The notes under the pieces: generated by a model
The model's input: the letters and a program-made list of their open reading frames with translations, nothing else
Told to the model about the DNA's origin: nothing
Databases searched by the model: none
Shown here: positions 4,756-61,716 of the stretch, in pieces
Layout of the letters: the number at the start of each line of letters is the position of its first letter
Position numbering within the stretch: position 1 is the stretch's first letter
Translations under genes and position numbers: made by a program
Source: Chloroflexota bacterium
GTDB taxonomy: Bacteria > Chloroflexota > Anaerolineae > UBA4142
Length of the DNA: 64,000 nt
Assembly: GCA_016219275.1 (NCBI GenBank)
Contig: JACRBM010000088.1
Span: 1 to 64,000, forward strand
Reading direction: 5' to 3'

Positions 4756-5041
4756 GTGCGCCCTCCTCTTGCAACCGATTCGCAAATGCGTCGGACGAAT
4801 CCAAGTTGACGAGATCAACTGGATGTTCAAGCTCAATCAGCAATTGTCCCAGGATGTGAAAGAATTGACCGGGCGGACAACCGCGCACGGCTAAATCGAG
4901 GTCAGAATCCGGTCGAACATTTCCGCGAGCGGCAGAGCCAAACAAGAATACTTCCGCGCAACCCGATGTTTTGAGAATGTTGATCGCACGACGAATATCC
5001 GGTTCGAGTTGTTCGGCGTGAATTAAATTTTCATTCATCAT
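4739..5041 (-). CDS. MNT-type nucleotidyltransferase antitoxin
   Basis: A 100-residue minimal nucleotidyltransferase. FLFGSAARGNVRPDSDLDLAV contains the GSX10DXD active site, with GS, a 10-residue spacer and DLD. Known MntA proteins neutralise their HepT partner by adding AMP to a tyrosine of the RX4HXY motif. The start ATG 5041 follows GAGG; an ATG one codon further on or an in-frame start at 5080 are alternatives. The gene begins 35 bases after mtnA and overlaps the toxin frame. The active site is intact although the toxin's target tyrosine codon is a stop. Confidence 0.88.
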   Translation of the reverse strand: MMNENLIHAEQLEPDIRRAINILKTSGCAEVFLFGSAARGNVRPDSDLDLAVRGCPPGQFFHILGQLLIELEHPVDLVNLDSSDAFANRLQEEGALVRIS

Positions 5042-6102: not shown

Positions 6103-6145
6103 CCAACCCCCACCTGACCTCCCCCGTACACAGGGGAGGAGTTGG
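6103..6145. repeat. Palindromic repeat, CCTCCCC family, in the mtnA leader
   Basis: CCTCCCC (6118-6124) pairs with GGGGAGG (6133-6139), with outer arms CCAAC (6103-6107) and GTTGG (6141-6145). It lies directly between the riboswitch terminator and the mtnA start, where a ribosome binding site would be expected. Larger relatives are at 12945-12992, 15934-16056 and 61564-61679. Confidence 0.7.
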
Positions 6146-11058: not shown

Positions 11059-13899
11059 CTACTCGACCACCTGACTATCCGACTTGATTTTGATTTGCAT
11101 CGCATTCAACAAATTCAACGCCTGCACCGGCGTCATGTTCGCAATGTCCACATCCGCAATCTGTCGCAACACCTCGCGCCACATTTCCGCGCGCGCGTCG
11201 TACACGGCACGTTCCTCGCGAACAACCGACGGATGACCGACGACGGATGACGGAACCAGATTGTCTTCCGTCCGCCGTCCGCCGTCCTCCGTCTCGCGTT
11301 CCGATTCCAGCCGCGCTAACACCCCCTCCGCGCGCTCCACCACGCGCCCCGGCAACCCCGCCAACCGCGCGACGTGAATGCCAAAACTTTTTTCCGCGCC
11401 GCCCGCGATGACTTGACGCAAGAAGATCACTTCGCTCCCTTGCTCCTTGACCGCCATCGTAAAATTCTTGATCGCCTCGCTCTGCGATTCGAGTTGCGTC
11501 AGTTCGTGATAGTGTGTCGCGAACAAGGTTTTCGCGCCGACGATGTTGTGAATCTCTTCCGCGATTGCCCACGCGAGCGAGATGCCATCGTAGGTCGAAG
11601 TGCCGCGCCCCACTTCATCGAGCACGATGAGCGAACGCGGCGTGGCGTGGCGCAAAATGTGGCTCGTCTCGCTCATCTCGACGAGAAACGTCGAGCGACC
11701 TTGCGCGATGTCGTCACTCGCGCCGACGCGCGTAAAGATGCGGTCGGTCAATGCGATGCGCGCGAAACTCGCCGGGACGAAACTGCCGATCTGCGCCATC
11801 AACACGATGAGCGCGACCTGGCGCACGAACACGCTCTTGCCCGACATGTTCGGTCCGGTGAGAATGATCACGCGTTGCGCTTCGTGGTCGAGCCGCGCGT
11901 CGTTTGGGACGAACGTCTCGTCATCGCGCAAAAATCGCTCGACAACGGGGTGACGCCCCTCGCGAATCTCGATCAGGTCGCCATCGTCCACGTTTGGCTT
12001 GACGTAGTTGTATCGCGCGGCGACCTCAGCGAACGCCGACAACGCATCGAGTTGCGCGAGGATGCGCGCGGCGGTTTGCAAACGCGCCGCGTGCGCGGCA
12101 ACCTCGCGGCGCACTTGCGCGAACAAATCGTACTCCAAATCGTTGCTGCGATCCTGGGTCGCGAGGATGTGCGTCTCTTGCGATTTGAGTTCGGGTGTGA
12201 CATAGCGTTCCGCGTGCGTGATCGTCGCGCGGCGTTCGTAATTCTTTGGGATCAAATGTCCCTGACTGCGCGGCACTTCGATAAAAAATCCAAACACTTC
12301 GTTGTAGCGCACGCGCAAATTCTTGATGCCGGTTTTCTTGCGTTCCTTCTCTTCGAGTTCCGCAAGCCAGGTCTTGCCGTGCGTCGCGCTTGCGCGCAAT
12401 TCGTCGAGCGTCGCATCGTAACCCGATTTGATCAGCCCGCCTTCCTTGATAAAAATCGGCGGATCATCCACAAGCGCGCGGTCAATCAACGCGGCGATGT
12501 CGGGACATTCATCGAGGTCGTTTGCCAATCGGGCAAGTAGGGGCGAGGCATTCGCAGAATCAAATTCCGAACGCGATTCCGTCTTCTCATCACGAATATG
12601 TTCACCCGACATTCGCGATTTGGCGAATGCCTCGCCCCTACCGACCAACTGCGATTTTATTTTCGGCAAGCGCATCAACGCGCGTTTCAAGCCGATCAAA
12701 TCGCGCGCGTTCGCGTTGCCGAACCCGATCCGTCCGACGAGTCGCTCGACATCGTACAATCCATCGAGCAATTTGCGAATGTCGCCGCGCAAGAACGCAT
12801 CGCGATGCAATTCGTCCACGGCATCGAGTCGCGCGTGAATCTGTGCGAGGTCGAGGAGCGGTTGCGTGATCCAACGCTTGAGCAAGCGCGCACCCATCGC
12901 GGTGACGGTGTGATCGAGTACGCCGAACAAACTGCGCGCGGTGGCAACCCTCACCCCACCCTCTCCCTGAAAGGGCGAGGGAGAAATCGGCGCGGTCAAT
13001 TCCAAATTGCGACGCGTTGCGGCATCGAGCGTCATGTAATCCGCGAGCGAGTACGTCCAGAGATGTTTGAGGTGTTGTAGGGGCGGCGTCGTGCCGCCCG
13101 TTGTCGGTTGGTTTGTTTTCAAGTATTGCAACGCGAGATTCGCCGCGACCATCGCGAGCGGCAAATCATCGCAACCAAAACCGGCGAGCGTCGCCACATC
13201 GAAATGCGCGCACAACTCACGTCGCGCATCGTCGGCGTTGCTCACGCGATCATCCATCGGCGAAATGCGCGCCGGGCGAATCGCTTTCAAGCGCGCGATA
13301 AATTCTGCGTCGTTCGCAAGCGATTGCGGCAGAACGATTTCACTTGCCTGCACGCGCTGTAACTCGTCGAGTAATTTCTGCGTCGCATCGGCGTCCGCGC
13401 CTTGAATCTGGGTCGTCGCAAATTCGCCAGTGGAGATGTCAACGATAGACAAACCGAACGTGGTTTGTAGGGACGACGCATGCGTCGTCCCTACATCACG
13501 CACAATCCCCGCAAGATAATTATCACTCTTGGCGCGCAACAACGCATCCTCGACGACCGTCCCAGGTGTGATGACACGAATCACATCGCGCTTGACGAGC
13601 CGCTTGACCTTCTTCGGGTCTTCGAGTTGCTCGACGAGCGCAACTTTGTAACCCTTGTCAATGAGTTTCGCGATGTACGATTGGACGTGATGATGCGGCA
13701 CGCCCGCCATCGGCAAGCGCACACCTTTCGCGAACGAGCGCGACGTCAGCACGAGTTCGAGTTCGCGCGCGGCAATTTTCGCATCGGTATCGAAGGTCTC
13801 GTAAAAATCGCCGAGACGAAACAGCACCATCGCATCGGGAAAGCGCGCTTTGATTTGCCGATACTGCGAGAGCATCGGCGTCAGTCTTTTCTCATCCAT
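11059..13899 (-). CDS. mutS: DNA mismatch repair protein MutS, with five repeat-derived insertions
   Basis: Recognises mismatches and recruits MutL. The mismatch-wedge motif is DFYETF near the N-terminus; the ATPase shows TGPNMSGKSVFVRQ (Walker A), VLDEVGRGTSTYDG and FATHYHEL. At 946 residues it is longer than most MutS proteins (about 850-900). The excess corresponds to five inverted-repeat segments read in frame: about residues 136-145, 267-275, 303-319, 420-455 and 869-892. I choose ATG 13899 (MDEKRLTP) because a promoter -10 box overlaps the in-frame ATG at 13911, placing that codon upstream of the transcript. An AUG-proximal transcript start implies leaderless or nearly leaderless translation. 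Confidence 0.95.
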   Translation of the reverse strand: MDEKRLTPMLSQYRQIKARFPDAMVLFRLGDFYETFDTDAKIAARELELVLTSRSFAKGVRLPMAGVPHHHVQSYIAKLIDKGYKVALVEQLEDPKKVKRLVKRDVIRVITPGTVVEDALLRAKSDNYLAGIVRDVGTTHASSLQTTFGLSIVDISTGEFATTQIQGADADATQKLLDELQRVQASEIVLPQSLANDAEFIARLKAIRPARISPMDDRVSNADDARRELCAHFDVATLAGFGCDDLPLAMVAANLALQYLKTNQPTTGGTTPPLQHLKHLWTYSLADYMTLDAATRRNLELTAPISPSPFQGEGGVRVATARSLFGVLDHTVTAMGARLLKRWITQPLLDLAQIHARLDAVDELHRDAFLRGDIRKLLDGLYDVERLVGRIGFGNANARDLIGLKRALMRLPKIKSQLVGRGEAFAKSRMSGEHIRDEKTESRSEFDSANASPLLARLANDLDECPDIAALIDRALVDDPPIFIKEGGLIKSGYDATLDELRASATHGKTWLAELEEKERKKTGIKNLRVRYNEVFGFFIEVPRSQGHLIPKNYERRATITHAERYVTPELKSQETHILATQDRSNDLEYDLFAQVRREVAAHAARLQTAARILAQLDALSAFAEVAARYNYVKPNVDDGDLIEIREGRHPVVERFLRDDETFVPNDARLDHEAQRVIILTGPNMSGKSVFVRQVALIVLMAQIGSFVPASFARIALTDRIFTRVGASDDIAQGRSTFLVEMSETSHILRHATPRSLIVLDEVGRGTSTYDGISLAWAIAEEIHNIVGAKTLFATHYHELTQLESQSEAIKNFTMAVKEQGSEVIFLRQVIAGGAEKSFGIHVARLAGLPGRVVERAEGVLARLESERETEDGGRRTEDNLVPSSVVGHPSVVREERAVYDARAEMWREVLRQIADVDIANMTPVQALNLLNAMQIKIKSDSQVVE
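11225..11294. repeat. CCGTCCGCCGTC/GACGGATGACGGA palindromic repeat inside mutS
   Basis: CGACGGATGACCGACGACGG in the first arm opposes TCCGTCCGCCGTCCGCCGTC in the second. Encodes about residues 869-892 (ETEDGGRRTEDNLVPSSVV and flanks), between the ATPase domain and the C-terminal helices. Confidence 0.8.
12537..12641. repeat. 19-bp perfect inverted repeat inside mutS
   Basis: GTAGGGGCGAGGCATTCGC (12537-12555) and its exact complement (12623-12641) enclose 67 bases. The 105-bp unit is 35 codons. It encodes about residues 420-455, rich in Ser, Arg and Glu, in the lever region. Confidence 0.88.
12945..12992. repeat. CCCTCTCCCT/AGGGCGAGGG hairpin inside mutS
   Basis: Arms at 12959-12968 and 12972-12981 pair with one mismatch. 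Encoded peptide contains PSPFQGEGGVR, closely resembling PSPWQGEGERG encoded by the related element at 15934-16056. Confidence 0.8.
13077..13099. repeat. GGGCGGC hairpin inside mutS
   Basis: GTAG, then GGGCGGC (13081-13087), a 5-nt loop and GCCGCCC (13093-13099). Shares the GTAGGG opening with the elements at 12537 and 13467. Encodes part of TTGGTTPPL in MutS. Confidence 0.65.
13467..13494. repeat. 28-bp perfect palindrome inside mutS
   Basis: GTAGGGACGACGCA (13467-13480) is followed directly by its exact reverse complement (13481-13494) with no spacer. It encodes the run THASSL at about residues 136-145 of MutS. Confidence 0.9.
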
Positions 13900-14131: not shown

Positions 14132-16525
14132 TTACGGAAATTGAATCGTACTCAATGTAATCGCGTCGCCGCCGTTGACCGGCAAGCGCGTGACATCGCT
14201 CGCGCGATACAAACCGACGATCACGCGATACTCGCCGGGTGGCGCATCGCGCGGCAGTGTCAACGCGTACTCGTCCGCGACAATTTCGCCGGCGTCCCAA
14301 AGCGAGGTCGGGTACGCGCCGTGTTGCGGTTGATCGTCTTTTTGCGCGATGAGCTTGCCATTCGCATCAACGAGATGCACGAACACGGTGTAATCCTCGT
14401 CCAGCGATTTGAGCGCGCGCCAGAACAAGCGGACGCGCAGCGATTCACCCGCGTGCGCGTTCGGCGCGATGGCATAGCCGACCAACGCGACCTGATCCGC
14501 GAAATCGTACCGCACCGGATTTTCGATTTGGATTTGCGATTGCCCCGCGATTTTGAAACGCGCGACGTTCGGCGTGATGGCGTTGCCGCGCGGGTCACGC
14601 GCGGTCAGATTTTCGAGCGGCGCGCGGCGATAGAGCGTCACGTCTACGCGCGCACCTTGCGCCGTGCGCGCGTCGGATACGAGCGGCACGCGGTACTCGT
14701 CCACGACGATTTCGCCCGGTTGCCACACGCGTGTCGGATACAAGCCGCGACCGGAGAACGCATCCCAGCGTCCGACGACATTCCCATCTGAATCAATCAA
14801 GCGAATGCCCACCGAAAAATCTTCGCCCATCGTTTCGCGCGCGCGCCAGTAAAGCGTGATCGGCAACTCACCGCCGGGCGCGATGGATTTTTGTGCGAGT
14901 GCGTAACCAATCAACTCGGCTTGATTGTCGAAAATGATTTGCGTTTGATTCGGTACGCGGGACGCATCGGCAAAACGCGGCGGCAAGGTGTAGGTTGGCG
15001 CGATGAGAGTGAAGGGCGCGAGCAAGGAGAAAGCTAAAAGTAAAAAGGCGAAAGGCAAAAGTAAAACGTGATTCTGAATTCTGAATTCTGAATTCTGAAT
15101 TCTGAATTGTCCCAGCCCGTACACGAACAACACCGCCAGCGCGCCAATCGCCGGAAAAATCAAACGTCCCTGCGACGCCATCGTGAGCCACGTCCAGCGA
15201 ACGAGCGAGAGGTTGATGAGCACAAACCACAACGCGGGAATCGCGAGCAAACCCGGCAGCGCGCGCCGCCACACGCCAATCAACAAACCAACGAGCGCGA
15301 GCACGGTGAACGCATCGAGAATCGAATACACCCACTCGGGCGCGATGATGTTGACGCCGCCAAAGTTGCCCCAGAACGAAATGCGAAAACCCTGGAACTC
15401 GTTGAACAGACCAGTGATGGTCATTGGCGTTGGTCGCCCGCCGGCTATCGCCACCCACACATCGAACGCGGACGGATCGCCGTACAACATCCAGTTGCGC
15501 GCATACCACCAGAACGCGATGAGGACGACGAGCGCGGCGCAAATCAGACTGCCAATTATAATGGGACGCGGATTGCGTAGCACGCGGACGAGCGTAGAAA
15601 TATATTTTCTATCCGCGTTCACACCTGCCCTTGCGGGCGATACAAGGGTCCGCGTTAATCCGCGTCCCAAAAGCAAATACACAAACACACACCCCGCGAC
15701 GCCGAGTAAACCCAGGTTGCTGATTTTGGTCAGTGCGCCTAAGCCGAGCACGACGCCCAGGACGACGAATCGCCGCATCGTTACGCCGCGTGTGACGAGT
15801 CGCGCCATCAGCACCAGCGCCAGTGTCGCAAGCAGCGTCGCGAGATTGTCGTTGTTCACCGACGCGCTGATGAACAGGAACATTGGATTGAACGCGACGA
15901 ACGCGGCGGCAAATGCGGCGAGTGTTTTGTCGTTTGTCATTGCGAGGAGCGATTTTTGCGACGCAGCAATCACCCCTCTCTCTCCCTCCCCTTGCCAAGG
16001 GGAGGGCTGGGGTGGGGTTGGGAATTGCTTCACCGCGGTGTGGCTCGCAATGACAAGCACAAGCGCGTACGTCAACGTGACGGTACCTGCTGACATCAAA
16101 ATCGAGAGCAAGCGGATGAGGTGAACGGCGAGCGCGGTGTTGTGCCACGGAAAACTTTCCGCGCTTGTGTGCACGACGAGATTCTTGTTGCCGAAATCGA
16201 GTGGAATACCGATGCGCGCGTGCGGATTCAACCACAACCGGTCCGGCAAATCGCGCGTGTCAATCCAAAACGTCGCGAGCGCGTTGATCGCGTAATAGAG
16301 TGGCGGCTGTCCGCCCTCTTGTTCCCACAACGTTTTCACGTTCGGGTCTTGAATCGGCAAGCCGTGACCAGCCGCGAGATGTTGGACGAACGGGTAATGC
16401 CAAATCTCGTCGCCCGCTTCAAAGATTGGCGTGATGATCGAGTACGTCACGCCCAGCGCGATGAACGCGGCAAGAATCAACACGAGCGCGCGATGCTCGA
16501 CCCAGGTTTTCGTCAGAGTACTCAT
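14132..16525 (-). CDS. Multi-pass GT-C glycosyltransferase (DUF2142/GT39-like) with two C-terminal beta modules
   Basis: A 797-residue membrane enzyme. FEAGDEIWHYPFVQHLAAGH and GGQPPLYYAINALA near the N-terminus match the DUF2142/GT39-like group, which transfers sugars from polyprenyl phosphates on the outer face. About ten membrane segments are followed by two beta modules starting near residues 537 (AELIGYAL) and 677 (VALVGYAI), each with LYWRA, a PT.(V/L)W motif and PPGEY- or equivalent endings. Three repeat-derived insertions lie in frame, at about residues 157-197, 285-312 and 473-500. Its ATG overlaps the upstream stop as ATGA. Acceptor and sugar are unknown. Confidence 0.85.
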   Translation of the reverse strand: MSTLTKTWVEHRALVLILAAFIALGVTYSIITPIFEAGDEIWHYPFVQHLAAGHGLPIQDPNVKTLWEQEGGQPPLYYAINALATFWIDTRDLPDRLWLNPHARIGIPLDFGNKNLVVHTSAESFPWHNTALAVHLIRLLSILMSAGTVTLTYALVLVIASHTAVKQFPTPPQPSPWQGEGERGVIAASQKSLLAMTNDKTLAAFAAAFVAFNPMFLFISASVNNDNLATLLATLALVLMARLVTRGVTMRRFVVLGVVLGLGALTKISNLGLLGVAGCVFVYLLLGRGLTRTLVSPARAGVNADRKYISTLVRVLRNPRPIIIGSLICAALVVLIAFWWYARNWMLYGDPSAFDVWVAIAGGRPTPMTITGLFNEFQGFRISFWGNFGGVNIIAPEWVYSILDAFTVLALVGLLIGVWRRALPGLLAIPALWFVLINLSLVRWTWLTMASQGRLIFPAIGALAVLFVYGLGQFRIQNSEFRIQNHVLLLPFAFLLLAFSLLAPFTLIAPTYTLPPRFADASRVPNQTQIIFDNQAELIGYALAQKSIAPGGELPITLYWRARETMGEDFSVGIRLIDSDGNVVGRWDAFSGRGLYPTRVWQPGEIVVDEYRVPLVSDARTAQGARVDVTLYRRAPLENLTARDPRGNAITPNVARFKIAGQSQIQIENPVRYDFADQVALVGYAIAPNAHAGESLRVRLFWRALKSLDEDYTVFVHLVDANGKLIAQKDDQPQHGAYPTSLWDAGEIVADEYALTLPRDAPPGEYRVIVGLYRASDVTRLPVNGGDAITLSTIQFP
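15024..15108. repeat. GAATTCT tandem repeat inside the glycosyltransferase gene
   Basis: Five GAATTCT-type units (15071-15108) preceded by AAAAGTAAA/AAAGGCAAAA units. Encodes RIQNSEFRIQN and neighbouring hydrophobic residues. Each GAATTC is self-complementary, so the array can fold in many registers. Confidence 0.7.
15590..15672. repeat. CGCGGATTAACGC-family palindrome inside the glycosyltransferase gene
   Basis: TATCCGCGTTCACACC opposes GGTCCGCGTTAATCCGCGTC on the same strand, with an inner CCCTTGCGGGCG hairpin. It resembles the intergenic element at 13955-14017. Encodes about residues 285-312, containing VSPARAGVNADRKY. Confidence 0.65.
15934..16056. repeat. Composite nested palindromic element inside the glycosyltransferase gene
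   Basis: Outer arms TTGTCATTGCGAG (15934-15946) and CTCGCAATGACAA (16044-16056) are exact complements. Inside them AGCAATC opposes AATTGCT, and the core is CCCTCCCCTTGCCAAGGGGAGG. The 123 bp equal 41 codons, inserting about residues 157-197. The same nested plan recurs at 61564-61679. Confidence 0.9.
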
Positions 16526-18330
16526 TCAATCACCCAGATCGGCGCAACACGAATGTGATCGCCCATCGGTTCGCCGCTGGCGTTCAAAAGTTCGAGGCGG
16601 TGCATCGTCGTCAGATCGTACCAACCAAGCGCCAGCGAGTACTCGCCCGGCGGAACGTCCGCGTCTACCGGAATAACCATCCCGTCCGCCGTAGACTGAT
16701 TCGCGCGCCATCGGCTGGTCGGCGATGCGCCATGTTGCGGTTGCGTATCTACGCCGGCGACGATCTGTCCGCGCGCGTCAATCAATTGAGCAAAGATTGT
16801 GTAATCGCGATTAATCGCGGCAGTCGCGCGCCAATACAACGACAGTCCAATCGCCTGCCCAGGTTTGACGCGAGGGTTGGCGAGTTCGAATTCCTCCAAT
16901 TGGATCACTTGAAAGCGCGCCGGCAAATTCGGCGTGGTCGTCACCGAAAAGTTTTTTGCGACCGAAATAGATTGCCACCTGGTCTCATCGTCTTGATAAA
17001 AAATCCACGCGGCATGGTGCGCGGATAAACGCGCGGGCAGGTCAATATCCGTGCCGCTTGCGGAAACGCCGCGACCATAACGCAGAAACATCAAGCCGGA
17101 AATATACGGACTTTGCATCGGTGGGTTGAGAAAATACACTAACGTATCCGGCGGGAAAGTGGGGAACGCTTGAAAGATCGGACGAAACTGGGAACGTGTT
17201 TGCCGCGCCGTTCCTTCAAACGCGACCGCGCTTTCGGCAATCGTCGCGCTGTTCCACACCAACAATCCCGTGCCGATCAACGCGGCGAGTGGCATCATCC
17301 AACGCCGGCGCGTCAGCAATTCAAATGCGAGTCCAACACCGATTGCCGAACCCATCAGCGGCAAATACAAATAGCGCGCCGACGATGACAACACGACCGG
17401 AAAAGGCAGGATCGGCAATAGCGTAAGCAGGATCAGTGCGACGAGAAACAACCCGCGTCGTTCGCCGCGCAGAATCGTGACGGCGACCAGACCCAGGATG
17501 AGCGCGAGCCAAACATAATTAACCGGCGACGGCAAACCCCAGGGAAACGCGAGCGTCGCCGCGTGTTGCGCCAGTCCCAGCCAAATGTGTCCGCCCGCGC
17601 CGTACCCCAACGAATTTGTGAACAGACCGCGCGTCAATACATTCAGTTCGAGCAAGCCATAGAGCGCGCCGAGAAAGACGAACAACGCATAGCGGCGCGC
17701 CAAGCCGAACCACGTCGTCGGTTTCGCGCTGACCCAGCGATCGGCAAGGAACAGCGCGACCGGCAACGTCGCGCCGAGTTCTTTCGACAGCAGCGCGCCG
17801 ATCAAGGTCAGCGTCGTGAACACAAACCAACGGCGGCGTCCGTCGGCAAGATATTCCAACCAGAGACGCAAGCTCAGTAAATAAAAAAACGACACGAGCG
17901 GATCCGCCACGCCGACCCAGAGTACGGCTAGACTGTCCACCGAGAGAACCGCGTAGACGAGCGCCGCGAGCAACGCCGGTCGCCAGCGGCGCGTGATCGC
18001 GCGCGCGAGTTCGAATAGCAAACACGCGTTGAGCAAATGCAAAACGAGTTGAAGGATGTGATGCCCGCGCGCATCATCGCGAAAAAGCAAATAACCGATC
18101 CACCATGCTAGTCCCTGCATCGGACGATACCAATGCCACTGCAATCGCGGATCAAAGTACGCGCCCAAGTAATCCGGAAAATCGAGTCGCCCGATGGCGT
18201 CGAGAAACGCATAGTCATCGGTCCAGAAACCGATGTTCAAACCAGGATGATAGACGATCAGACCCACCGCGACGATGACGATAAAGCAAATGATGATCCA
18301 CCATCGCGACGAAATCAATGCCCCGCTCAT
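16522..18330 (-). CDS. GT-C membrane glycosyltransferase, tandem paralogue 3
   Basis: A 602-residue multi-pass protein. The first outer loop shows FWTDDYAFLDAIG and YRPMQGLAWW, a DDxxFL-type acidic pair as in PMT/TMTC-like GT-C enzymes; LLSKELGATLPVALFL follows. A soluble segment with FPPDTLVYFLNPP and SGLMFLRYGRGVS precedes a beta module (about 478-602) with LYWRA, PTSRW and PPGEYSLAL. These landmarks recur in the next two genes, so the three are duplicates. The start codon directly abuts the upstream stop. Sugar specificity cannot be read. Confidence 0.82.
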   Translation of the reverse strand: MSGALISSRWWIIICFIVIVAVGLIVYHPGLNIGFWTDDYAFLDAIGRLDFPDYLGAYFDPRLQWHWYRPMQGLAWWIGYLLFRDDARGHHILQLVLHLLNACLLFELARAITRRWRPALLAALVYAVLSVDSLAVLWVGVADPLVSFFYLLSLRLWLEYLADGRRRWFVFTTLTLIGALLSKELGATLPVALFLADRWVSAKPTTWFGLARRYALFVFLGALYGLLELNVLTRGLFTNSLGYGAGGHIWLGLAQHAATLAFPWGLPSPVNYVWLALILGLVAVTILRGERRGLFLVALILLTLLPILPFPVVLSSSARYLYLPLMGSAIGVGLAFELLTRRRWMMPLAALIGTGLLVWNSATIAESAVAFEGTARQTRSQFRPIFQAFPTFPPDTLVYFLNPPMQSPYISGLMFLRYGRGVSASGTDIDLPARLSAHHAAWIFYQDDETRWQSISVAKNFSVTTTPNLPARFQVIQLEEFELANPRVKPGQAIGLSLYWRATAAINRDYTIFAQLIDARGQIVAGVDTQPQHGASPTSRWRANQSTADGMVIPVDADVPPGEYSLALGWYDLTTMHRLELLNASGEPMGDHIRVAPIWVIE

Positions 18331-45762: not shown

Positions 45763-47057
45763 TCGAGCGCGGCGCGCGCGGACTGCTCCGCCTCGAATTT
45801 GTTTTGCTCGCGGCGATTTATTTCTACTTTGTGATTTCCGACCGGACGCCACTCGTCGCGTGGATCGTGATCGCGCTTATCTGGATCGCGCGCGTGACGA
45901 CGCAAGGAATTCGGCGCACACCTTTCGATTTGCCCATCGTGATCCTGCTCGCGCTGTTGCCGGTCAGTCTCGCGGTCTCGACGAACTGGTCACTCAGCGT
46001 GCCGAAAGTATACGGCGTGGTGTTGAGCGCGCTGTTTTTTTATGCGCTCGTCAATCAAGTTGCTACGCGCGACGATTTGAACAATACGATGTTCTGGCTG
46101 GTGGTTGTGTTTGCCGCGATTGCGCTCGCGGGAATCATCGGCACGGATTGGGCGCAAAACAAGATCGTTTCGGCGACCTGGCTGTACGACCGATTGCCGC
46201 GCTTCATTCAAGGGATTCCGCGTTCGATTGCCGGCGGGTTCGCACGCAACGGCGTCGGCGGCACGCTCGCGTTGACGATTCCATTTCTCGCGGCGCTCGC
46301 TAGCCAGTATTCAGTGTTCAGAGTGCAGTATTCAGTATTCAGTGTTCAGTATTCAGATAAGAAGAGACTGAACACGGAATACTGGACACTGAACACTGTT
46401 GTTCTCGTTGCGCTCGTCTTGTCGCTTGTCGCGCTCGCGCTGACGCAATCACGCGGCGGGATGCTAGGCACGGCGGTCGGTTTGCTCGCCATTGCGATTT
46501 GGCGCGAGCGACGCTTTGCGTGGCTCATCGTCGCGGGCGCGCTCGCGCTCGGCGTGCTGTTCGCGCTGGGCTATGGCGACGCGCTGCTCGCGTTCATCTT
46601 GCGAATGGACGCGGGGGCGGGAACATTCGCGAGCCGGCTCGAAGTGTGGTCGCGCGGCGTGATGATGGTGCAGGATTTTCCGTACACCGGGATCGGCATC
46701 GGCACGTACAACGACCTCGCGCACGCGCTCTATCCGTTTTTCATCGCCGCGCCGGACGAAGTCGTCGCGCACGCGCACAATAATTTTTTGCAGGTTGCCG
46801 TGGATTTGGGTATTCCTGGGTTGATCGCGTACACCGCGTTGATGACACTGTTCGTCATTCTCGCATGGCGCGCCTATCGCGCGTTGCCGGAAGCGCGCGC
46901 GCTGATTGTCGGAGTGTCGGCGGGGATGCTCGCGCATCAAGTCTTTGGCTTGACGGATGCGTTCATGCTCGGCACCAAGCCAGGTGTGTTGATGTGGATT
47001 TTTCTCGCGCTCGTCGCGGCGCTCGACCGCCAGCGCGTGATGGATGAACGAACGTGA
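45759..47057 (+). CDS. O-antigen ligase/polymerase (Wzy_C) family membrane protein 2, with repeat insertion
   Basis: A 432-residue multi-pass protein. ALTQSRGGMLGTAVGLLAIA, then FASRLEVWSRGVMMVQDFPY and TGIGIGTYNDL form the Wzy_C region, and HAHNNFLQVAVDLGIPGLIA is its conserved end. A palindromic repeat at 46305-46398 is read in frame (about residues 183-213, QYSVFRVQYSVFSVQYS and onward) just before the helix leading to SRGG. ATG 45759 is taken from the ATGA overlap with gmhB. Confidence 0.86.
   Translation: MIERGARGLLRLEFVLLAAIYFYFVISDRTPLVAWIVIALIWIARVTTQGIRRTPFDLPIVILLALLPVSLAVSTNWSLSVPKVYGVVLSALFFYALVNQVATRDDLNNTMFWLVVVFAAIALAGIIGTDWAQNKIVSATWLYDRLPRFIQGIPRSIAGGFARNGVGGTLALTIPFLAALASQYSVFRVQYSVFSVQYSDKKRLNTEYWTLNTVVLVALVLSLVALALTQSRGGMLGTAVGLLAIAIWRERRFAWLIVAGALALGVLFALGYGDALLAFILRMDAGAGTFASRLEVWSRGVMMVQDFPYTGIGIGTYNDLAHALYPFFIAAPDEVVAHAHNNFLQVAVDLGIPGLIAYTALMTLFVILAWRAYRALPEARALIVGVSAGMLAHQVFGLTDAFMLGTKPGVLMWIFLALVAALDRQRVMDERT
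46305..46398. repeat. CAGTATTCAGTGTTC palindromic repeat inside wzy 2
   Basis: Tandem CAGTATTCAGTGTTCA units in the first arm oppose GAACACGGAATACTGG and ACACTGAACACTG in the second, with a short AAGAAGAGA loop. Translated as a Ser/Tyr/Gln-rich stretch between two membrane helices. AT content is much higher than in the surrounding gene. Confidence 0.85.
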
Positions 47058-56958: not shown

Positions 56959-57044
56959 TGTCATTTCGACGAGCCGCGAAGCGTTTGCGAGGAGAAATCT
57001 CTGTTCACACAGGAAAAAGATTTCTCGCTCCGCTCGAAATGACA
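56959..57044. repeat. Nested palindromic repeat, TGTCATTTCGA family, between convergent genes
   Basis: Outer arms TGTCATTTCGA (56959-56969) and TCGAAATGACA (57034-57044) are exact complements; inner arms AGAAATCT (56993-57000) and AGATTTCT (57019-57026). It may also serve as a two-way terminator. Related in plan to the TGTCATTGCGAG elements at 15934 and 61564. Confidence 0.88.
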
Positions 57045-59962: not shown

Positions 59963-61716
59963 TGTTTGACTACCTGCGCGTCGTTTAACAACATTCGTCC
60001 CATGTAACCGATCTTGACGCCTTCGACGCGATTGCTCAACACCATCACATCCAGCGGCGCATAAAGTGGTTGCCACGGCGCGTCTTGCATGATCATTTTT
60101 TGCGCCTCAAAATAAATGCTCCACCGTTTGGCTTCGGTCAGCTCGTGCGCGGCTTGAGCGAACAATGCATCCACTTGCGCGTTGCGATAGCCGACGCGAT
60201 TCGTACTGCCGATGCGATCCGAACCCAGGAAAATGTTCAGCGCATCTGCGTCGTTCCAATCGTACCGCCACAACAGAAAATCGAATTGCCCTTCGTTCGA
60301 CGCGGTCATCACCGCTTTGCTATCGAGTTGTCGAATCTCGACGCCGACGCCAATCGCTTTGAGTTGACTCTGAAGCAACGTCGCAATGGAATCGTTCGGC
60401 GCGCGGTTCGACGTGAGTAGAACGCCTTTGAGCGACTGACCGTTGCGCGTCCAGGTTCCATCGCTTGCTTTGACGAAACCGGCTTGCGACAACAATGTCT
60501 GCGCTTGTTTTGCATCGTACTGCAATTCGTACTGTTTCAACTGCGGATCAAACCCAGGTATGGTTGGCGCGAGCGGCGCGTACGCGACCTTGCCCAGTCC
60601 GCCGAGCGCAACGCTGACGATTTCCTCTTTGTTGATCGCGTGCGAGAGCGCGCGGCGCACGCGCGCATCGTCGAAGGGTGGCTTGCTCGTATTGAATCCC
60701 AGGAAGATGAGACTGTTCAACACGGTCTCTTGCAAATGCACGGACGCGTCGTTCTGTAATTTCAAACGATGTTCCGGCTGATTGATGAAGATCGCGTCCA
60801 CTTCACCGGCTTGGAGCGCGGCGAGTTGCGTCGTCGCATCAGGAATCACTTTCAACACGACCGTATCGAGGTACGGCGCGGCGCGATTTTGCGTGACGGC
60901 GGCGCCCCACGCGTACGCCGGATTGCGTTTGAGCGTCAGCGATTGCCCCGCGCGCCACTCGGCAAGCGCGAACGCACCCGTGCCAACCAGGTAGCCCTTG
61001 CCGGTTTCGGCAACCTTGCGCGCCGAGGCGGGGCTGATGATGCCGGCGTAGGGCATCGTCACCGTGCTCCAAAAATTCGCGGTGGGCTGCGCGAATGTGA
61101 AACGCACCGTCAAGTCGTCCATGCTTTCGATGCCGCCGATTTGTTTGACATTCTCATAGATCGGTGATTTCGTTCCCGCGTCTTTGAAACGTTGGAATGT
61201 AAAGCGCACCGCGTCCGCGTTGAACGGCGCGCCGTCTTGAAACGTAACGCCTGCGCGTAATTTCATCGTGATGGCTTTGCCATCGGACGCGACCTGCCAA
61301 CTCTCCGCGAGGTGCGGTAAGATTTTATTGTCGAGATCGCGCACGACGAGCGTGTCGAACAAGTACGGCAACACGACGCTCAAACCGGAATTGGGCGCGC
61401 CTTGCGGATCAATGATGGCTGGTTCGGATGTAATCGCGCGGATGAATGTACCGCCGTTCGCGGTCGTCGTCATCGAACTGGTTTTGCTCTGCGGGGTCGC
61501 GGCGGCGCACGCAACGACGATGCCAGCGAGCATGATCAGCACAAAAAACGCACCAACGCGAGTTGTCATTGCGAGCGAAGCGACGAAGCAATCTACCCCT
61601 CCCAACCCTCCCCTTACTAAGGGGATGGCTAGGGTGGGGTCATGGATTGCTTCGGGCAAAGACCGCCCTCGCAATGACAGAGAACCTGATCGAAATATCA
61701 AACTGATTTTTTTCAT
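59959..61716 (-). CDS. Extracellular solute-binding lipoprotein (SBP family 5), repeat in signal peptide
   Basis: A 585-residue binding protein of the peptide/nickel type (SWQVASDGKAITMKLRAGVT and FQDGAPFNADAVRFTFQRF). ATG 61716 has the strong site TAAGGAGTAGGAG. The first residues MKKISLIF look like a signal peptide start, but a palindromic element (61564-61679) then supplies about residues 13-51, after which TTRVGAFFVLIMLAGIVVAC gives the hydrophobic core and lipobox (Cys70). An internal start at ATG 61569 would restore a normal signal peptide but lacks a clear site. Coupled to the DppB-like gene. Confidence 0.9.
   Translation of the reverse strand: MKKISLIFRSGSLSLRGRSLPEAIHDPTLAIPLVRGGLGGVDCFVASLAMTTRVGAFFVLIMLAGIVVACAAATPQSKTSSMTTTANGGTFIRAITSEPAIIDPQGAPNSGLSVVLPYLFDTLVVRDLDNKILPHLAESWQVASDGKAITMKLRAGVTFQDGAPFNADAVRFTFQRFKDAGTKSPIYENVKQIGGIESMDDLTVRFTFAQPTANFWSTVTMPYAGIISPASARKVAETGKGYLVGTGAFALAEWRAGQSLTLKRNPAYAWGAAVTQNRAAPYLDTVVLKVIPDATTQLAALQAGEVDAIFINQPEHRLKLQNDASVHLQETVLNSLIFLGFNTSKPPFDDARVRRALSHAINKEEIVSVALGGLGKVAYAPLAPTIPGFDPQLKQYELQYDAKQAQTLLSQAGFVKASDGTWTRNGQSLKGVLLTSNRAPNDSIATLLQSQLKAIGVGVEIRQLDSKAVMTASNEGQFDFLLWRYDWNDADALNIFLGSDRIGSTNRVGYRNAQVDALFAQAAHELTEAKRWSIYFEAQKMIMQDAPWQPLYAPLDVMVLSNRVEGVKIGYMGRMLLNDAQVVKQ
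61564..61679. repeat. Composite nested palindromic element in the binding-protein signal sequence
   Basis: Outer arms TGTCATTGCGAG (61564-61575) and CTCGCAATGACA (61668-61679); inner GAAGCAATC opposing GGATTGCTTC; core CCTCCCCTTACTAAGGGGA. Same plan as 15934-16056, but translated in a different frame. Confidence 0.9.

Follow-up and report, generated by a model that had tools for sequence, protein, structure and literature searches.

A lineage-specific hairpin in the centre loop of a TGTC-tagged inverted REP dimer

At positions 15934-16056 of the window, the 64,000-nucleotide stretch of DNA analysed here, one palindrome lies nested inside another within a gene for a membrane protein. A preliminary description of the locus offered two readings of such nesting: that the loop of one element serves another as a target, or that the composite moves as a unit. 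By what means (C/T)GTC-tagged REPs, which lack a dedicated transposase, are spread is a question raised in the literature (PMC3733652). A guest hairpin confined to one lineage and present in only some of the dimers is a natural tracer: comparing close strains at dimers with and without it would distinguish the movement of whole dimers from the swapping of loops.

The nested architecture itself is as first described: the arm TTGTCATTGCGAG occupies 15934-15946, its reverse complement occupies 16044-16056, and between them lies the CCCTCCCCTTGCCAAGGGGAGGG hairpin (Table 1). The 123 bp correspond to 41 codons that are open in the host reading frame, and the insert, whose predicted peptide is VIASHTAVKQFPTPPQPSPW, lengthens the PMT_2/DUF2142-like membrane enzyme by ~40 amino acids. 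The exact codon length holds for this copy but is not a property of the family, since nested forms range from 109 to 156 bp. The 797-aa host protein matches PMT_2 with an E-value of 1.6e-8, and its match to DUF2142 falls slightly under that family's cut-off. Folding of the composite gives -34.7 kcal/mol as DNA and -58.8 kcal/mol as RNA, with z = -5.9 in both cases; a search of region 15000-17000 against Rfam, at E up to 1, returned no match.

Table 1. Coordinates of the composite elements, their parts and their host genes in the window
Feature	Position	Strand	Basis or remark
Composite element: TGTC-tagged REP inverted dimer with core hairpin in the centre loop	15934..16056		in-frame in minus-strand gene 14132-16525
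Left REP unit: TGTC tag, ATTGC stem, tip GAGCGATTTTTGCGAC, GCAAT stem; YCCAA tail absent	15935..15971	+	sequence reading and comparison with other dimers
Core palindrome (guest element), ACCCC...GGGGT, 47 bp	15972..16018		ends defined against solo cores
Inner hairpin of the core, CCCTCCCCTTGCCAAGGGGAGGG	15984..16006		pattern search and folding
Right REP unit, inverted; tail TTGGGA kept	16019..16055	-	sequence reading and comparison with other dimers
Host gene, 797 aa, PMT_2 / DUF2142-like membrane protein	14132..16525	-	ORF, domain matches, orthologues
Type-B REP dimer GTCATTTCGA...GAGAAATC, without core	56959..57044		arm search, dimer comparison
Host gene of the second composite, SBP_bac_5, 585 aa	59959..61716	-	ORF and domain match
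Second composite	61563..61680		signal-peptide (N-terminal) region of the SBP_bac_5 gene; core ~61595-61640

The same nesting had been reported from another gene at 61564-61679, and it is present there, at 61563-61680 in the SBP_bac_5 gene; from TGTC to GACA this copy measures 116 bp, which is no multiple of 3. Within the window the core pattern matches both composites and, with a mismatch in a single arm, one further position at 4761. The two places where the core had been thought to occur alone proved to be something else: the hairpins at 6103-6145 (ACCTCCCCC..AGGGGAGG) and 12945-12992 (CCCTCTCCCT..AGGGCGAGGG) are C/G-rich as well, but belong to other families with related yet different sequences. 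The former lies immediately 5' of what is probably the ATG start codon of a gene of the IF-2B family, a position resembling that of many solo cores elsewhere in the genome. The gene mutS seems to hold two unlike in-frame palindromic inserts, a GTAGGGGCGAGGCATTCGC inverted repeat at 12537-12641 and the CCCTCTCCC-type hairpin at 12945-12992, and inverted repeats of CAGTATTCAGTGTTCAG units at 46304-46398 represent a further repeat family.

The outer element is a REPIN-like, TGTC-tagged REP inverted dimer whose family is common among relatives. It fits the (C/T)GTC-tagged REP group, judging by its tag, its arrangement in dimers, its tail and its occurrence inside genes rather than by comparison with the consensus sequences of the four published families. 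The CGTC-tagged REP superfamily, which includes Rickettsia RPE-4/RPE-6 and Neisseria dRS3, has been listed in five phyla, with dimers inserted within other palindromes; its criteria are an unpaired CGTC tag (TGTC and CCTC being accepted), an 8-9 bp stem starting with AT, a 4-5 bp loop and a CCA-like tail (Di Nocera et al. 2013, PMC3733652). Here, similarly, TGTC or more rarely CGTC stands at the dimer ends, a short AATC-YCCAA tail is found in core-less dimers (one tail being lost in nested ones), head-to-head dimers prevail (~53 inverted dimers of type A and 15 of type B), some copies are intragenic, and no RAYT flanked by TGTC repeats was found. The stem also starts with AT, but only ATTGC/GCAAT pairs uninterrupted, with tips of ~6 to 50 nt, and this outer uninterrupted stem looks shorter than that of the superfamily. 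The nesting is the reverse of that described, with a palindrome inside the dimer; the guest, which occurs alone as well, is specific to this lineage.

Other known systems share parts of this design. A REPIN consists of two inverted REPs with a spacer, forms one hairpin and spreads as a doublet (Bertels and Rainey 2011, PMC3116915); an inverted REP doublet with a spacer, folding into a hairpin, is seen here too, whereas REPINs are tied to a RAYT near matching REPs and the only Y1 gene here adjoins a GTAG pair. Rickettsia palindromic elements are 105-146 bp inserts read in-frame in conserved proteins (PMC2229807), much as the composites lie in-frame in the PMT_2-like gene, rsmD and a heparinase-like gene for which empty orthologues exist; organism and sequence are different, however, and the present insert is built of two families. 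The closest of the genomes compared, with long conserved orthologues, are fellow members of this genome's family and class and not Rickettsia. Correia/NEMIS elements come in 107-bp and 155-bp forms, the longer with an internal insert (PMC2229807), and thus also pair a short form with a longer one, but the inserted part here forms a palindrome family of its own, some copies of which stand alone. REP-targeting insertion sequences (Tobes and Pareja 2006, PMC1525189) likewise occupy one fixed REP position, while the guest here is a ~47 bp hairpin without coding capacity. Literature searches for the GTCATTGCGAG and CCCTCCCC palindromes gave chance matches only. Nested REP palindromes have precedents, but in the literature consulted we found no inner hairpin described that, besides being a guest specific to one lineage, occurs alone with other site preferences. 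The composite itself is real and non-random.

Our census combined genome-wide pattern searches, which give positions for the first matches only, with direct reading of ~1.24 Mb plus numerous loci of 3-5 kb, on contigs that were picked for having matches and hence form no random sample; complete dimers were those that are inverted with both arms at ≤1 mismatch. Across the 6.16 Mb genome 63 copies of the core pattern were counted, against 0 for a reversed control, and the arm TGTCATTGCGAG, at ≤1 mismatch, has 126+128 matches genome-wide against 2+4 for the control. Of the 63 cores 57 were read: 24 of these are nested, another 24 stand alone, and the remaining 9 are remnants or nested in part. 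The ~53 complete type-A dimers divide into 32 without core (33 rows, one overlapping pair having been entered twice), 20 with core, one of which (L021) holds two, and a single dimer (L203) with a different C/G-rich hairpin. The count of outer-only, core-only and nested forms proposed in the preliminary description thus comes to 32 core-less dimers, 24 solo cores and 20 dimers with a core, and, as that description had it, the core does occur outside the composite. Type-B dimers (GTCATTTCGAG, GAGAAATC), in which ATTGC/GCAAT is changed to ATTTC/GAAAT with stem pairing preserved, contained the core in 0 of the 15 read, and identical tip modules are found in dimers of both types. The idea that two unrelated palindromes overlap by chance has nothing in its favour beyond the two window copies taken alone. 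With type-A centre loops of ~15-20 bp each, 53 loops amount to ~1 kb of the 6.16 Mb; an arithmetic estimate puts ~0.01 of the 57 cores there by chance, against 24 observed, and this explanation can practically be disregarded.

The junctions define where the guest begins and ends. Core-less dimers have the centre AATC-YCCAA-(short)-TTGGR-GATT, and nested ones AATC(T)/ACCCCTCCC...GGGTGGGGT/TGGR-GATT, the slashes marking the junctions. In nested copies one REP tail is missing and the other intact, on a constant side relative to the core's own asymmetry, and the junctions are uniform across all of them; in type-A dimers the core occupies the centre loop only and is found in none of the arm tips. 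Solo cores keep the same ACCCC...GGGGT ends amid unrelated flanks, which argues that the core is a discrete unit. They also differ in location: 11 of 19 solo cores lie ≤30 nt upstream of a start codon; the corresponding figures are 2.2% for random positions, 6 of 33 for core-less dimers and 3 of 21 for nested copies. Solo cores are therefore possible candidates for an effect on the 5' leader, as far as their placement suggests.

These features bear on a reading in which there is only one element, the solo cores being leftovers of composites stripped of their outer arms. Nine partial forms would fit it, as would the ATC that precedes several solo cores just as it does nested ones. Against it stand the sharp ends and unrelated flanks of solo cores, their membership in a different core subfamily, an in-frame solo copy in hflX, and their strong start-codon bias, which is much weaker in dimers; we consider it very improbable.

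Several solo cores sit directly 5' of a Shine-Dalgarno sequence and start codon (L122, L125, L128, L132, L169, C40:2879, C40:326201, C86:12785 and C58:169848). In other places core hairpins form short arrays with regular spacers (L166 ~1750-2360; L127 ~1500-1602), as if the inner hairpin were able to multiply in tandem.

Comparison with relatives orders the two families in time. Each of 19 relatives, drawn from the same family, order or class, has the core pattern in 0-1 copy, while a composite query finds matches, mainly to the outer arm, in 12 of the 14 genomes searched (its own included), some of which yield >200 first-look candidates. None of the 28 dimers of relatives that were read contains the core, and no nested form was seen in relatives at the loci compared. 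In three genes empty, core-less and nested states share one linker. The PMT_2-like gene, nested in this genome, carries a dimer without core in G001 and G012, and its site is empty in G002, G004, G010 and G011 (for example ALEIKPNDKTL). The gene rsmD, also nested here, has a core-less dimer in G006, another C-rich hairpin in G012 and an empty site in most others; the heparinase-like gene, again nested here, has a core-less dimer in G012 and is empty in G002 and G011. The 61563-61680 site of the SBP gene is empty in four relatives. The empty orthologues of the first three genes belong to other genera, at a divergence too great for a target-site duplication to be defined. Of the two families in this genome, the outer one is old and the core one younger; within dimers the core is confined to the type-A centre loop with fixed junctions. 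The core hairpin is a separate C/G-rich element with a recent expansion limited to this genome's lineage. The proposal that one element targets the loop of another is thereby well supported: the core is near-absent from dimer-rich relatives and restricted to the centre loop of type A, and three genes that are outer-only or empty in relatives are nested here. A search of other species with the exact junction pattern gave at least 118 matches, with no true composite among the matches listed, the pattern being too unspecific and the sequence set one that may omit records close to this genome.

Whether the outer-only copies of relatives are ancestral to the dimer at 15934 is a separate matter. A three-gene tree groups this genome (G000) with G001 at a support of 0.997. 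We do not treat the copies of G001 and G012 as ancestral: G001, though sister, has its copy 2-3 codons off, and G012 is a more remote relative, separated from this genome by others whose site is empty. Judging by their positions, the outer-only copies in relatives may have arisen by parallel insertion instead of being ancestral, and because they are scattered on the tree, the linkers look as if they have been used repeatedly as sites.

Core sequences carry information about how the guest came to occupy so many dimers. The mean distance is 0.173 within nested cores and 0.217 between nested and solo cores, a difference that 0 of 5000 permutations equalled; the nearest neighbour of a nested core is another nested core in 23 of 24 cases, and CCCAA precedes the core in 11 of 24 nested but 0 of 24 solo copies. 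Many independent insertions of solo cores straight into the centre loop, as a preferred target, would be in keeping with the discrete ACCCC/GGGGT ends of the solo element and with some nested cores that are solo-like, such as C58:176304 with CCCTCA. Against it, nested cores are nearest to one another in all but one case, and it is always the same REP tail that is lost, which would not be expected from random insertion; we find this reading quite unlikely.

Alternatively, the core could have entered a single REP dimer, the composite then being copied as a block while its arms diverged or were exchanged later. The uniform junctions shared by all nested copies and the nested-core subfamily are what a single founder would leave. 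The arms, however, tell another story: those of nested dimers are as diverse as those of empty dimers and not distinct from them (972 of 2000 permutations), near-identical cores lie between unlike arms (core distance 0.02 and arm distance 0.29 for L009/L010; 0.06 and 0.83 for C86/C88), and core and arm distances within nested copies are uncorrelated overall (r 0.05, 1683 of 5000 permutations), although at n = 20 and with arms that are short and variable the missing correlation is weak evidence. We regard a single founder as rather unlikely; a moving block with fast arm exchange is possible. The composite may, as suggested earlier, move as a unit: the junctions and the core subfamily speak for it, and the arms speak against it, being alike in nested and empty dimers and varying without relation to the cores.

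Because near-identical cores sit between different arms, we lean towards a loop cassette that would be passed between dimers while the arms turn over independently, in preference to a composite moving as a block; the identical junctions would follow from a single founder too. On the cassette reading, one or a few insertions of the core into REP dimers would have given rise to a loop-adapted core subfamily, which would then have been handed from dimer to dimer with the centre loop as the cassette position. The simplest route would be template switching or gene conversion between shared hairpin stems; alternatively, a hypothetical single-strand nuclease or transposase might cut at the hairpin foot. 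Intragenic composites would persist where they are in-frame and in tolerant linkers, with no benefit to the host protein implied. A more elaborate scheme, which we advance tentatively and hold to be unlikely, would make the dimers modular palindrome docks, with a separate class of hairpin cargo for the centre loop and for the two arm tips, swapped between dimers via a dedicated single-strand mechanism; the core would then belong to the centre only, and CCTGGCACTTGC-type and CTGAGC..GTCGAAGG-type hairpins to the tips.

The genome has one Y1 transposase gene (C40:90181-90528). Around it (C40:90181-90720), a REP pair of two GTAG-CATTGTTG hairpins, the sole two in the 1.24 Mb read, lies 3' of the gene, GGACGCT hairpins flank it on both sides, and a TGTC arm is absent from the nearest 1.5 kb. 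Given these neighbours, this Y1/RAYT gene was rejected as the mobiliser of the TGTC dimers, for which no enzyme was found. A single Y1 gene without TGTC neighbours agrees with the statement that CGTC repeats have no dedicated transposase (PMC3733652).

Palindromic inserts in the loose linkers of conserved proteins are a source of new protein sequence, and in RsmD and HflX such linkers have been refilled repeatedly by unrelated palindromic inserts across genera. The HflX linker 3' of the NKxD motif has a different insert in nearly every genus (L168 ~1950-2080 here; L250-L256 in relatives): an in-frame solo core in this genome (L168), a type-A dimer in G007, a type-B dimer in G010, and other palindromes or purine repeats elsewhere.

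The arm tips of some dimers carry further hairpins of their own, CCTGGCACTTGC..GCCAGGGCAAGTG and CCTTCGACT..GCTCAGGA (C58:7288-7448, L174, L177, L188, L191 and C88:90399-90554). Near-identical tips occur in 0 of 50 pairs, against 3.3 expected, and the two tips within one type-A dimer differ more than under random pairing (P 0.0023). Both tip-hairpin families are also found standing alone, and one tip hairpin appears to enclose a third palindrome.
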